Source of the DNA: Natrarchaeobaculum sulfurireducens
GTDB lineage: Archaea; Halobacteriota; Halobacteria; Halobacteriales; Natrialbaceae
Length of the DNA stretch: 64,000 bases
Reading direction: 5' to 3'
NCBI RefSeq assembly: GCF_003430825.1
Contig: NZ_CP024047.1
Span: 558,001-622,000, forward strand
Shown: positions 42,979-50,774 of the stretch, piece by piece
Numbering within the stretch: position 1 is the stretch's first letter
Layout of the letters: the number at the start of each line of letters is the position of its first letter
Program-made: the position numbers and the translations under genes
Notes under the pieces: generated by a model
What the model was told of the DNA's origin: nothing
Database searches by the model: none
The model's input: only the letters and a program-made list of their open reading frames with translations

Positions 42979-43830
42979 CTACCGGCTCACAGTGCGTGAA
43001 AAGACGAACTCCCGGAGCAGTTTCCCCGCCAGCGACGCGGCCTGGCCGTCGTCGCGGTCGTTGACCTCGACCACGTCGAAGCCCGTCGTCTGTGGTGCGA
43101 CCTCGCGGACGACGTCGCGCATCTCGCGGGGCTCGAGGCCGAACGGCTCCATCGTGCCCGTCCCCGGCGCGTATGCGGGATCGGCACCGTCGATGTCGAC
43201 GCTCAAGTAGGCCTCACGGCCCTCGAGTCGGTCGGCGACCGAGACCTCGGCGACGTCCTCCGGTGGGACGACGGTTACGTCGTCGGCCTCGGCGCGGTCC
43301 CACTCGGCTTCGCTGCCAGTCCGTGCGCCGAGGATGATCGCCTCCTCGACGGAATCGACGTCCTCGAGGATTCGTCGCGTGACGCAGGCGTGGCTCAGCG
43401 GGTTCCCGTCGTAGGCATCACGAAGGTCGAGGTGGGCATCGAGACAGACGAACACCTCGGGTTCGACGGCGCGGACGGCCGGGAGCGAGACGGTGTGTTC
43501 GCCCCCGAGCACCAGCGGTATGGCCTCGTCCCAGACGACATCCCGGACGGTTCCCTCGAGCCACTCGAGGTACGCCTCGACGTCGTCCCACGCGCGGACG
43601 TCGCCGTGGTCGACGACGCCGAGGTCGGAAAAGTACTGGTCGGTTCGACGGTCGTAATCGTCGAACGTCTCCGCAAACGTTCTGATTCGCCGGGGACCAA
43701 ACCGAGTGCCCGGTTGAAAGGTCGTCGACACGTCCAGGGGCGCACCGACGACCACGAAGTTCGCGTTCGCGCGACCGGATTCGTCGGCCACGTCGCCCGC
43801 CTCGCGTCTGTCGCTCGCCCCGGGAAACAT
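42979..43830 (-). CDS. speB: Agmatinase / ureohydrolase
   Basis: A 283-residue ureohydrolase of the arginase family. Dinuclear manganese ligands lie in LVLGGEHTVSLP, FVCLDAHLDLRDAY and SVDIDGADPAYAPGTGT. The gene follows IF-5A on the same strand with the start overlapping the IF-5A stop by one base (ATGA junction), so the two are translationally coupled. Haloarchaeal IF-5A hypusination depends on an agmatinase-like step. The arrangement suggests this enzyme acts on agmatine or agmatine-modified IF-5A. ATG 43830 is fixed by the overlap. Confidence 0.92.
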   Translation of the reverse strand: MFPGASDRREAGDVADESGRANANFVVVGAPLDVSTTFQPGTRFGPRRIRTFAETFDDYDRRTDQYFSDLGVVDHGDVRAWDDVEAYLEWLEGTVRDVVWDEAIPLVLGGEHTVSLPAVRAVEPEVFVCLDAHLDLRDAYDGNPLSHACVTRRILEDVDSVEEAIILGARTGSEAEWDRAEADDVTVVPPEDVAEVSVADRLEGREAYLSVDIDGADPAYAPGTGTMEPFGLEPREMRDVVREVAPQTTGFDVVEVNDRDDGQAASLAGKLLREFVFSRTVSR

Positions 43831-44204
43831 CAGACGATCTTTCGCTGCTCTTCCATCTCGAGGAACTCGATCTCGTCGTCGGGCGAGACGTCGACGTCGT
43901 CGGGGACGCGCATCGTCATCGTCTCGTACGTCTCGAGGTCCATTACCTGCATATCGTCGCCGTCGACGGAGACGACCTGGCCCTGTTTCCGGTTGATGAT
44001 TGGGACCCAGATCTTCGCGTCGACGGGCTGAGAGAGCGAGCGTTTTTTGCCGTCGAAGACGCCTTTGGCCTCGATTCGGGCCTTGGCGCTCCCGTGTTTG
44101 CCGGGCTTGGCGGTCGAGTAGGCGTTGATCTTACACGCCGCGTCGTCGATAACTACGTAGCCACCTTCCTGAAGATCGCGAACTTCCTTCTGCTGTCTCG
44201 CCAT
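43830..44204 (-). CDS. eif5a: Translation initiation factor IF-5A
   Basis: A 124-residue IF-5A (aIF5A), which relieves ribosome stalling at polyproline and other hard sequences. The modified lysine is K36 in [11 protein letters not shown], the hypusine loop. The N-terminal SH3-like barrel and C-terminal OB domain are both complete ([17 protein letters not shown], then [11 protein letters not shown]). The start is ATG 44204; a TATA box 27 nt upstream indicates a leaderless transcript. It is followed by agmatinase with a one-base overlap, which links hypusine-pathway genes. Confidence 0.96.
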
Positions 44205-47283: not shown

Positions 47284-48954
47284 TCACTCGTCGCCACGAC
47301 GCTGGCGAAGGTTCTGTCTGGTGAACTGCGGCGTCGCCTGTAGCCCGCGGCGTCGGCGCCGGAACGAGAGGAACAACAGCACGATGAGCAACGCCGAGAG
47401 CGAGCCGGAGACGATGACCGCAAGGTCGAGTCCGCGGAACGCGTAGATGATCGCCGTCGAGATCAGCCCGACCGAGAGCAACAGCCCGTAGATGAGCCGT
47501 TTCGCCAGCCGGTCGAACACCCGGTGGGCGTCCTCGAGTTCGATCGTCACGGTGACGGCCTCGCGGTCGAGTTTATCGAGGCTCCGCTCGAGCTTCGGAG
47601 GGACTCGAATGAGCGACTCGGTGGTGTCACGGAGCTGGTCGCCGGAGGCGGAGACGAACTGGCGAATCGATTCCTCGCGATAGCCCTGTTCGGTGAGGTA
47701 CTCCGTCGCCGTGGTGATGAAGTCGAAGTCCTGATCTAACGTGACACAGACGCCCTCGACGACGGTGGCGACGCGAAGGACGAGCGCCAGGTTCTTCGGA
47801 AGTCGTAACGGGAACTCGTAGATCGAATCTTCGACCTGACCGATGATCTGTTGGACCCGGTACTGTTCGATGTCCTCGCCACGGGCGTCGGCGATCGCTA
47901 GCTCGAGGACCTCAGCCATCACCGCCCGGTCGGCTTCGGGGCTCAGTGTGCCGATTTCGATCAGCGAGTCGAGGATCGCGTCGATGTCCTGGTTGGCGAC
48001 GGCGATGTAGAAGTCGACGATCTTGTCCTGGACGAAGTCGTCGACCCGGCCGGACATCCCGAAGTCATAGAAGACGATCTGTCCGTCGTCGGTCACCGCG
48101 AGGTTGCCAGGGTGGGGGTCGGCGTGGAAGACGCCGTCGTCGATGATCATCTGTAGGTACGACCGCTGGAGCGCCTCGGCGAGTTCACTCCGGTCGATCC
48201 CCTTTCGATCCAGTTCTGCCACGTCGTTGATCTTCGTTCCGCCGACGTACTCCATCGTGAGGACGCGTGAGCCCGAGTGAGAGTCGATCACAGCCGGGAT
48301 ACGAAACCGTTCGTCGCCCTCGAAGTTCGACCGAATCTCTTTGAGCATCTTCGCTTCGCGGCTGTAGTCCATCTCCTCGCGGATCGTCTTCGCGAACTCG
48401 TCGGCCAAGTTCTCGAGCGAGAACGATCGAGCGTCGTCGACGAAGTACAACAGCAACGGCATCGACCAGCGGATGACCCGGAGGTCGGCTTCGATGAGGG
48501 GTTCGACGTTCGGCCGGCGGATCTTTACCGCGACTGATTCGCCGTCGATCCGTCCCCGATAGACCTGTCCGAGACTCGCACCGCTGATCGCCTCGGTGTC
48601 GAACTCGTCGAACCGTTCGTCGACGGGGCCGAGTTCGTCTTCGAGCACCGTCTTCGCGTCGGACCACTCCGCCGGTGGCACCTCGTCCTGGAGCGCCGAC
48701 AGTACCTCGATGTACTCCGGCGGCAACACGTCCGGCCGCGTCGAGAGCAACTGGCCGAGTTTGATGAACGTCGGGCCGAGTGTCAACAGCGACTCGAGCA
48801 ACACCTCGGCACGGCGTCGGTGGGTCTCCGGCCCGACGCGTCGCCGACGGCCGAACAGGAGAAAGCGACGCCGATCACGGGCGTACGCGAGCAACAGGGG
48901 GAGAAACTGCCATGCGACGAGAACGAACCGCCTGTACGCGCGGAAGGAAGCCAG
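47284..48954 (-). CDS. UbiB/ABC1-family atypical kinase, apparent CTG start
   Basis: A 556-residue UbiB-type atypical protein kinase-like protein. Signatures are LGPTFIKLGQLLSTRPDVLP (KxGQ loop), SGASLGQVYRGRIDGESVA (glycine-rich loop), VFHADPHPGNLAVTDDGQ (catalytic HADPHPGN) and FYDFGMSG. Two C-terminal membrane helices (about 498-540) anchor it. Family members support isoprenoid-quinone synthesis or lipid homeostasis. The conserved N-terminus reaches back to codon CTG 48954; a GAGGTGA Shine-Dalgarno ends 6 nt before it. The nearest canonical alternative, TTG 48894, would remove a conserved helix. Confidence 0.9.
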   Translation of the reverse strand: MASFRAYRRFVLVAWQFLPLLLAYARDRRRFLLFGRRRRVGPETHRRRAEVLLESLLTLGPTFIKLGQLLSTRPDVLPPEYIEVLSALQDEVPPAEWSDAKTVLEDELGPVDERFDEFDTEAISGASLGQVYRGRIDGESVAVKIRRPNVEPLIEADLRVIRWSMPLLLYFVDDARSFSLENLADEFAKTIREEMDYSREAKMLKEIRSNFEGDERFRIPAVIDSHSGSRVLTMEYVGGTKINDVAELDRKGIDRSELAEALQRSYLQMIIDDGVFHADPHPGNLAVTDDGQIVFYDFGMSGRVDDFVQDKIVDFYIAVANQDIDAILDSLIEIGTLSPEADRAVMAEVLELAIADARGEDIEQYRVQQIIGQVEDSIYEFPLRLPKNLALVLRVATVVEGVCVTLDQDFDFITTATEYLTEQGYREESIRQFVSASGDQLRDTTESLIRVPPKLERSLDKLDREAVTVTIELEDAHRVFDRLAKRLIYGLLLSVGLISTAIIYAFRGLDLAVIVSGSLSALLIVLLFLSFRRRRRGLQATPQFTRQNLRQRRGDE

Positions 48955-48960
48955 TCTCGG

Positions 48961-48967
48961 TCACCTC
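48961..48967 (-). promoter_or_regulatory. Shine-Dalgarno sequence setting the UbiB start
   Basis: Read on the minus strand, GAGGTGA ends in the HSP20 stop codon TGA and lies 6 nt upstream of CTG 48954. It is complementary to the 16S rRNA 3' end at near-ideal spacing. No ATG, GTG or TTG occurs between it and TTG 48894. Confidence 0.65.
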
Positions 48968-49463: not shown

Positions 49464-50774
49464 ATGAAAGGTGCCGACCGCGAACGCACGGAGGCCGGCT
49501 TCAAGGTACGGACGCCGGTCGACGAGGCGCGCCGGGTCCTCCGAGACGCACTCGAGCAGCGACGGAACGGGGACGTGACGGACGGGGCGTTCACTCCGCT
49601 TACGGGGACCGACCGCGTCGCCGTCGAACGTGCCGACGGACGCGTCCTCGCGACGGCCATCACGTCCGCACGGAACGTCCCACACTACCGACGGGCAGCG
49701 ATGGACGGCTACGCCGTCTGTGCTGCGGACACGTTCGGAGCGAGCGAGCGTTCGCCAGCTGTCCTCCGGCTCACGGAGGGAACCGGGCGCGAGGCCACCG
49801 TCGTACCCGAGACGGCCGCACGCGTCCACACCGGCAGCGCGCTCCCCGACGGCGCGGACGCGGTCGTGATGATCGAGCACGTCTCCGAACTCGAGTCGGT
49901 CGGTGAACTCGAGGTCGAAGACGCCGTTGCCGAGGGCGAAAACGTCGCCCCAGTCGGCGAGGACGTCGAAGACGGCCAACCCCTCTACGACGCGGGCCAC
50001 CGACTGCGCCCGTCCGATCTCGGCTTGCTGCGCTCGGTCGGCTACGATCGCGTCGATGTCGCGAAGCGGCCGACGGTGGGCGTGATCCCCACGGGTGAAG
50101 AACTCGTCACGGCAGACCCCGGCCCCGGCCAGGTGATCGAGACCAACGGCCTCACCGTCTCGCGACTCGCCGACCGCTGGGGCGCAAACGCGACGTATCG
50201 AGACGTCGTCACCGACGACCCCGAATCGCTGCGCGTCGCGATCCAGCGCGACCTCACGAAAGACGTCGTCGTCACCACCGGCGGCTCATCCGTCGGCAAG
50301 CGCGACCTCCTCCCCGAAGTGATCGACGACCTCGGCGAGGTGGTCGTCCACGGTGTCGGGCTCAAACCCGGCCACCCGGTCTGTCTCGGCATCGTCGAGG
50401 ACACCCCCGTTATCGCGCTGCCAGGCTACCCCGTCGCCTGCATCGTCAACGCCGTCCAGTTCCTCCGACCCACGCTCCGTTGGCTCGAGGGCACCACTCC
50501 CGATCCCCACCCGACTACGCAGGCCGTCCTCGACCGCAAGATTCCCAGCGAACCCGGCACCCGAACGTTCGCTCGGGTGCAACTCGAGCAACGCAACCCC
50601 GTCGATGTCGAGGACGGCGAGCACGAATACCGGGCGATTCCGACGCGTGCGAGCGGGTCGGGTGTCCTCTCGAGCGTCGCGCTCGCCGACGGCTGGGTGG
50701 TCGTCGACGACGGTCGTGAGGGGATTCCCGCTGGCGAGACGGTCTCGGTCGAAAACTGGGAACCTGGTTACTGA
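49464..50774 (+). CDS. moeA: MoeA molybdopterin molybdotransferase
   Basis: A 436-residue MoeA. Motifs are HYRRAAMDGYAVCAAD (substrate-binding), HTGSALPDGADAVVMIEHVS (second domain), VGVIPTGEELV, TTGGSSVGKRD and HGVGLKPGHPVCLG, and a C-terminal domain IV. It inserts molybdate into the adenylylated pterin. It is a paralogue of the MoeA-PBP fusion at 2812-4713 but lacks the C-terminal PBP domain; in archaea one copy may serve tungsten and the other molybdenum (inference). ATG 49464 gives the normal N-terminus with a short extension. Confidence 0.92.
   Translation: MKGADRERTEAGFKVRTPVDEARRVLRDALEQRRNGDVTDGAFTPLTGTDRVAVERADGRVLATAITSARNVPHYRRAAMDGYAVCAADTFGASERSPAVLRLTEGTGREATVVPETAARVHTGSALPDGADAVVMIEHVSELESVGELEVEDAVAEGENVAPVGEDVEDGQPLYDAGHRLRPSDLGLLRSVGYDRVDVAKRPTVGVIPTGEELVTADPGPGQVIETNGLTVSRLADRWGANATYRDVVTDDPESLRVAIQRDLTKDVVVTTGGSSVGKRDLLPEVIDDLGEVVVHGVGLKPGHPVCLGIVEDTPVIALPGYPVACIVNAVQFLRPTLRWLEGTTPDPHPTTQAVLDRKIPSEPGTRTFARVQLEQRNPVDVEDGEHEYRAIPTRASGSGVLSSVALADGWVVVDDGREGIPAGETVSVENWEPGY

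Follow-up and report, generated by a model that had tools for sequence, protein, structure and literature searches.

The UbiB/ABC1-like kinase gene of the window (the whole 64,000-nucleotide stretch analysed, part of a 3.8-Mb genome with haloarchaea as its named relatives) very probably begins at a CTG codon, set behind a strong Shine-Dalgarno (SD) sequence that overlaps the end of the preceding HSP20 gene (Table 1). We propose that translation of UbiB starts at CUG 48954, on an mRNA that also carries HSP20. The GAGGUGA lying over the HSP20 stop would pair with the tail of the 16S rRNA and so bring the CUG into the P site; the initiator tRNA would read it there with a mismatch at the first position, and methionine would be inserted. 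Part of the initiation is probably due to termination-reinitiation by ribosomes that complete HSP20 6 nt upstream. The weak CUG would limit UbiB output, possibly under selection for low output, and the strong SD would offset it, a pairing that appears to be kept across many haloarchaeal genera. Taken as a whole, an SD-positioned CUG start on an mRNA shared with HSP20, served in part by reinitiation, is an explanation in which we place high confidence.

Table 1. Features at the HSP20-UbiB junction, in window coordinates
Feature	Coordinates	Strand	Remark
UbiB/ABC1-like kinase gene	48954-47284	minus	556 residues counted from the CTG
CTG, proposed (putative) UbiB/ABC1-like start codon	48954-48952	minus	From orthologue comparison
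GAGGTGA Shine-Dalgarno sequence	48967-48961	minus	Overlaps the last HSP20 codons and the TGA stop
HSP20 TGA stop	48963-48961	minus	In the UbiB frame; three codons 5' of the CTG
UbiB codons 1-20	48954-48895	minus	Lost if the start is TTG 48894; evolves as coding sequence
TTG, first canonical in-frame UbiB start, rejected	48894-48892	minus	Weak SD pairing; codon varies among relatives
HSP20 (small heat-shock protein) gene, directly 5' of UbiB	49353-48961	minus	PF00011, E 7.1e-14

The product of the gene matches Pfam PF03109 (ABC1) with an E value of 1.9e-73 and 247 bits, against a gathering score of 22.9. Its best NCBIfam match is TIGR01982, the UbiB equivalog of ubiquinone biosynthesis, at 336.1 bits; since the cut-off of 487.55 is not reached, we name the gene UbiB/ABC1-like (UbiB for short). 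The KxGQ motif, which defines the ABC1/UbiB family of atypical kinases, occupies residues 65-68 counted from the CTG, is invariant in all nine sequences aligned and stands at the same position in 71 of 71 genomes of the CTG-only group defined below. UbiB is an ordinary gene whose start codon is unusual but robustly supported, and very probably functional. All 170 genomes compared have an HSP20 match directly 5' of UbiB (tblastn, E up to 0.01). When the HSP20 frame is aligned to relatives, the alignments extend 14-31 codons 5' of its ATG (window 49446-49354, minus strand), into what may be a conserved promoter or leader.

On the minus strand the junction reads GCC GAA CCG AGG TGA CCG AGA CTG GCT TCC TTC CGC GCG TAC. 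The sequence-only reading had pointed to a GAGGTGA SD 6 nt ahead of CTG 48954, and to the absence of any ATG, GTG or TTG in the UbiB frame from the HSP20 stop to TTG 48894. The window sequence bears out the first (the spacer is 48960-48955), and the second holds base by base. Because the HSP20 TGA falls in the UbiB frame, an in-frame start further upstream is excluded in the window, and from that stop to the conserved N-terminus UbiB offers no canonical codon. The first one in frame is TTG 48894, 20 codons past the CTG, and it is there that the mechanical list of open reading frames begins the gene.

We compared this junction across haloarchaeal genomes, anchoring each on the UbiB protein for codon numbering. 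From 178 loci (L009-L186), 8 duplicates were removed, leaving 170 genomes with one locus each, the window included; L001-L008 come from genomes already among L009-L186 and were left out of the junction counts. The 170 genomes stem mostly from the best-scoring of the matches listed (391 genomes were searched in one survey, all matching), and the sample leans to the family of the window (77/170). Codon 1 is CTG in 126 genomes, GTG in 14, ATG in 3, TTG in 3 and another codon in 24. Twenty-one of these 24 carry GTG at codon 2, and the remaining three have ATG at codon 3 (L127, L143) or CTG and then GTG at codons 2-3 (L022). Across all 170 genomes, therefore, an NTG start is found within codons 1-3, with CTG the commonest. 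Leucine-type codons at codon 1 (n = 129) are CTG in 126 genomes and TTG in 3, and none of the 129 is CTC, CTT, CTA or TTA; at nine other conserved leucine columns of the same genomes, non-CTG codons make up 25-95%. This restriction fits a start codon and is unlike an internal leucine. The CTG therefore lines up with ATG, GTG and TTG starts in orthologues, and its codon identity is constrained. These results support the earlier proposal of a CTG start behind a strong SD, and the comparison of orthologous junctions that had been suggested as its check favours the CTG as the real start. In three genomes of family f4 (L101, L102, L117), codon 1 is an in-frame TAG and codon 2 is GTG; the start there cannot be further upstream, which fixes the N-terminal boundary. 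A CTG directly precedes the TAG in these three genomes, and the start in family f4 is displaced by one codon.

The CTG is widely but unevenly distributed. It occupies codon 1 in 74/77 genomes of the window's family (f1), 30/33 of f5, 9/9 of f7, 10/10 of f12 and 1/1 of both f3 and f8, in 1/23 of f4 (the ambiguous L133), and in no genome of f10 (0/10), f13 (0/3), f14 (0/1) or f6 (0/2). Of 72 genera, 50 show nothing but CTG, 20 lack it and 2 are mixed. Among the named haloarchaea, CTG occurs for instance in Natronococcus, Halopiger, Halobiforma, Natrinema, Halovivax, Halorubellus, Haladaptatus, Halolamina, Haloferax sp. Q22 and Halorubrum; GTG is found in Halobacterium salinarum. The named set comprised 80 loci, of which 39 non-haloarchaeal ones were left out, as were further non-haloarchaeal matches; CTG is present in 23 of the 41 haloarchaeal loci, which overlap the 170 genomes and are kept apart from the counts. 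On a quick tree of the proteins from codon 6 onward in the 170 genomes, at least 10 changes between CTG and not-CTG are required, and 14 when six states are distinguished. It had also been suggested that a canonical start codon was recently mutated. We reject this for the window: CTG is present in 4/4 genomes examined of its genus and in nearly all of its family, as counted above, and 52 of the 72 genera have it wholly or partly, so that the chance of a sequencing error or of a recent mutation of an ATG or GTG start is practically nil. Among 13 second UbiB copies, none has CTG at the aligned codon 1; nine, including the window genome's own paralogue, have ATG at the aligned codon 3, and the other four have long in-frame extensions upstream. 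The own-genome paralogue is L296 (C3:2423276-2424676), and the other second copies (L297-L308) are in some cases plasmid-borne.

In 71 genomes, which we call CTG-only, no ATG, GTG or TTG occurs from the preceding in-frame stop to the CTG. In 69 of them, covering 24 genera and two families, there is also no canonical start up to 16 codons past the CTG, the exceptions being L133 (GTG at codon 2) and L079 (GTG at codon 11), and in 18 there is none within 29 codons downstream. In 10, one of which (L015) belongs to the window's genus, the first canonical start lies past the KxGQ lysine (residue 65); these 10 proteins would lose the motif unless the CTG or another non-canonical codon initiates. Pairwise differences at codon positions 1/2/3 among the CTG-only genomes are 0.176/0.080/0.344 for codons 5-12 and 0.102/0.056/0.355 for codons 13-20, whereas codons -20 to -13 differ by about 0.69/0.67/0.68; codon 1 is invariant here because the set was selected by it. 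The pattern of substitution indicates that codons 2-20 evolve as coding sequence and that the stretch 5' of the SD does not. This bears directly on the possibility that translation starts at TTG 48894, the upstream 20 codons being untranslated. Such a start would use the first canonical in-frame codon, and TTG is found at that position (codon 21) in 46/71 CTG-only genomes. However, it is at odds with the coding-like evolution of codons 5-20 and with orthologues that begin with ATG, GTG or TTG at codon 1; the position holds another codon in 25/71, and in the 10 genomes just mentioned the next canonical start would cost the motif. Moreover, SD pairing ahead of this TTG is weak, at -3.4 kcal/mol in the window and -4.3 on average over the 73 genomes that have it. 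We consider a start at TTG 48894 very unlikely and reject it for the window gene. The TTG leucine codon is generally rare in haloarchaea, and TTG at codon 21 is kept more than this rarity would suggest.

Ahead of the CTG, SD pairing is much stronger than ahead of an ATG, GTG or TTG occupying the same codon. Pairing was predicted against GGAUCACCUCC for the 17 nt ending 3 nt before each start; the 16S tail GCGGCTGGATCACCTCC occurs three times in the window genome. Predicted pairing ahead of the window CTG is -14.9 kcal/mol. Mean values are -13.4 kcal/mol for CTG-only genomes and -12.2 for CTG genomes with an upstream GTG, followed by -9.9 for GTG at codon 2, -7.5 for GTG at codon 1 and -6.4 for ATG at codon 1. 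For pairing within UbiB itself, the 5% level is -9.3 kcal/mol; 94% of the CTG genomes lie beyond it, versus 20% of the 20 whose codon 1 is canonical. The difference in pairing between CTG (126) and canonical codon 1 (20) has a p value of 4e-12, uncorrected for relatedness; a tree-paired test of CTG against strong SD had 2 supported pairs only and shows nothing, so SD compensation stands only as an uncorrected association. As an association over related genomes, the stronger SD before the CTG fits compensation of a weak codon.

For 53 relatives, a different start has to be weighed. These genomes have a GTG two or three codons upstream of the CTG, and if that GTG were the start, the CTG would be an internal leucine and CTG initiation would be confined to the CTG-only lineages. 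The GTG is canonical and in frame, but SD pairing is better ahead of the CTG than ahead of this GTG in 53/53 (the mean given above, against -5.2 kcal/mol). Moreover, all 58 genomes with such an upstream start keep either CTG, TTG or GTG as codon 1 or GTG as codon 2, a constraint not expected of an internal leucine. When it lies three codons 5' of the CTG, the GTG forms part of the SD itself; three of the 53 genomes also have GTG at codon 2. We consider the upstream GTG unlikely to be the start in these relatives. It is probably the gene caller's choice, and we infer from the sequences that the CTG is the start here too, with less certainty than in the CTG-only group.

The HSP20 stop lies close to the proposed CTG start in most genomes. 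Among the CTG-only genomes, 34 have a gap of 6 nt, 32 one of 14-16 nt and 3 one of 56-62 nt, with the HSP20 stop unplaced in 2; across CTG genomes it is mostly 6 to 21 nt, and in genomes with a canonical codon 1 it is 1-6 nt in 15/20. In the window the two genes are separated by 6 nt, with no -4/-1 overlap of stop and start. The position of the stop also bears on a read-through of the TGA that would yield a single HSP20-UbiB protein. In the window the stop is indeed in the UbiB frame, three codons 5' of the CTG, but where it could be placed in CTG genomes it is in frame in 81/122 and out of frame in 41/122, and in many genomes of family f1 the in-frame TGA is part of the SD, HSP20 ending earlier in another frame. 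We regard such a fusion as scarcely conceivable, and reject it for the window. A different route into the UbiB frame would begin at the out-of-frame GTG within the SD, 10 nt ahead of the CTG, and continue by a +1 frameshift. This GTG is present in 69/71 CTG-only genomes, and an out-of-frame start with slippage has been proposed for another haloarchaeal gene, HVO_1510 (PMC8305020). Yet the GTG belongs to the GGTGA of the SD itself, no shift motif is evident by eye in the 6 nt from SD to CTG, and the GTG frame stops after two codons in 9/70 genomes. A frameshift would also leave the absence of CTC at codon 1 unexplained and is unneeded in relatives with ATG, GTG or TTG there. We therefore reject this route as well for the window gene, as exceedingly improbable.

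What is reported for Haloferax volcanii helps to place the proposed CUG start. SDs give no help to initiation at 5' UTRs there, and SD motifs are enriched ahead of distal operon genes (PMC3986360); the SD would thus aid UbiB only if active at distal operon genes. When SDs were removed, reinitiation fell by 20-80% in 6/7 gene pairs and rose in one (PMC6728339), and in one pair a 13-nt gap made reinitiation ~60% lower, with loss at 22 nt (PMC10666635), which counts against the proposal, given the gaps of mostly 6 to 21 nt in CTG genomes. HSP20-UbiB resembles these termination-reinitiation pairs in having a distal operon gene, an SD that overlaps the preceding gene's end and close spacing (PMC6728339, PMC10666635, PMC3986360), but the H. 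volcanii pairs typically overlap by 4 or 1 nt, whereas here there is a 6-nt gap and a CTG start. Leaderless transcripts require AUG, with GUG and UUG non-functional (cited in PMC3986360), which speaks against a leaderless start at the CTG. Taken together, these points make SD-assisted initiation or reinitiation at the CUG of an HSP20-UbiB mRNA most likely.

A base-rate scan covered the 14 window genes for which two or more of five relatives had homologues in the syntenic stretch. Seven of the 14, UbiB among them, were flagged as having no canonical start upstream of the alignment edge; the flag is unspecific, because alignments extend into the upstream gene or promoter. One flagged case, an arginase-family gene (window 42982-44130, minus strand), has an ATG at codon 101, ahead of which the wrong frame of another gene had been read. 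Its stop-to-stop frame runs about 100 codons upstream of the ATG through that other gene, which traps stop-to-stop scans. HSP20 and a MoeA-like gene at 49464 have ATG starts. It is plausible that gene callers overlooked the CTG of the window UbiB, which fits the start of the listed reading frame at TTG 48894.

The openly licensed literature searched on CUG starts, archaeal initiation, coupling and N-terminal proteomics yielded no paper describing a CTG start for UbiB, and a term search of a manual curation paper on haloarchaeal starts gives no mention of CTG (PMC4500146). A CTG start has been suspected in the haloarchaeal orthologues of HVO_1510 (LeuA-type), where, as for UbiB, canonical starts cut the conserved N-terminus or are absent and an in-frame CTG was proposed; the authors left CTG versus an out-of-frame ATG undecided, for one ortholog set in 16 genomes (PMC8305020). 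Unlike that case, the UbiB CTG is conserved over many genera, aligned with canonical starts and accompanied by an SD. The small ORFs sRNA_7, sRNA_23 and sRNA_81 of H. volcanii, listed with mass-spectrometry support (PMC12482152), likewise use CTG as initiation codon in a haloarchaeon, but they are small ORFs in sRNAs with an assigned start, whereas UbiB is a conserved large gene with an SD in a two-gene unit. AUG switched to CUG in 2 of 61,358 ancestral AUG starts in closely related genome triplets (PMC5622118), and in 69 bacterial genomes CTG starts account for 0.024% of the annotated ORFs (quoted in PMC9845219). CUG initiation in haloarchaea thus has precedents; the novelty of UbiB is that a large gene shows it with deep conservation and a link to an SD.

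The infC gene of Escherichia coli, encoding IF3, starts with AUU, and its product rejects its own start codon. UbiB would resemble infC in keeping a weak start codon in a conserved gene, where it limits or regulates output. It differs in that the codon is CUG instead of AUU and that the product has an ABC1 kinase domain and is no initiation factor; autoregulation of the infC kind does not apply to it. The CUG could act as a sensor, with UbiB synthesis depending on the strictness of aIF1 against non-AUG codons and on the translation of HSP20, a reading that we consider improbable. If it were true, stress that loosens start selection or raises HSP20 translation would yield more kinase, and infC-type control would have an archaeal analogue that is conserved in several haloarchaeal families.

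Many haloarchaeal genomes probably carry wrongly annotated UbiB N-termini, and other CTG starts may have gone unnoticed. Genomes with CTG and a strong SD, set beside those with ATG or GTG and a weak SD at the same codon, form a natural set that would suit measurements of start-codon strength and of SD compensation in a genetic model. A start codon that is rare in bacteria would be the prevailing start of one orthologous gene across many archaeal genera.
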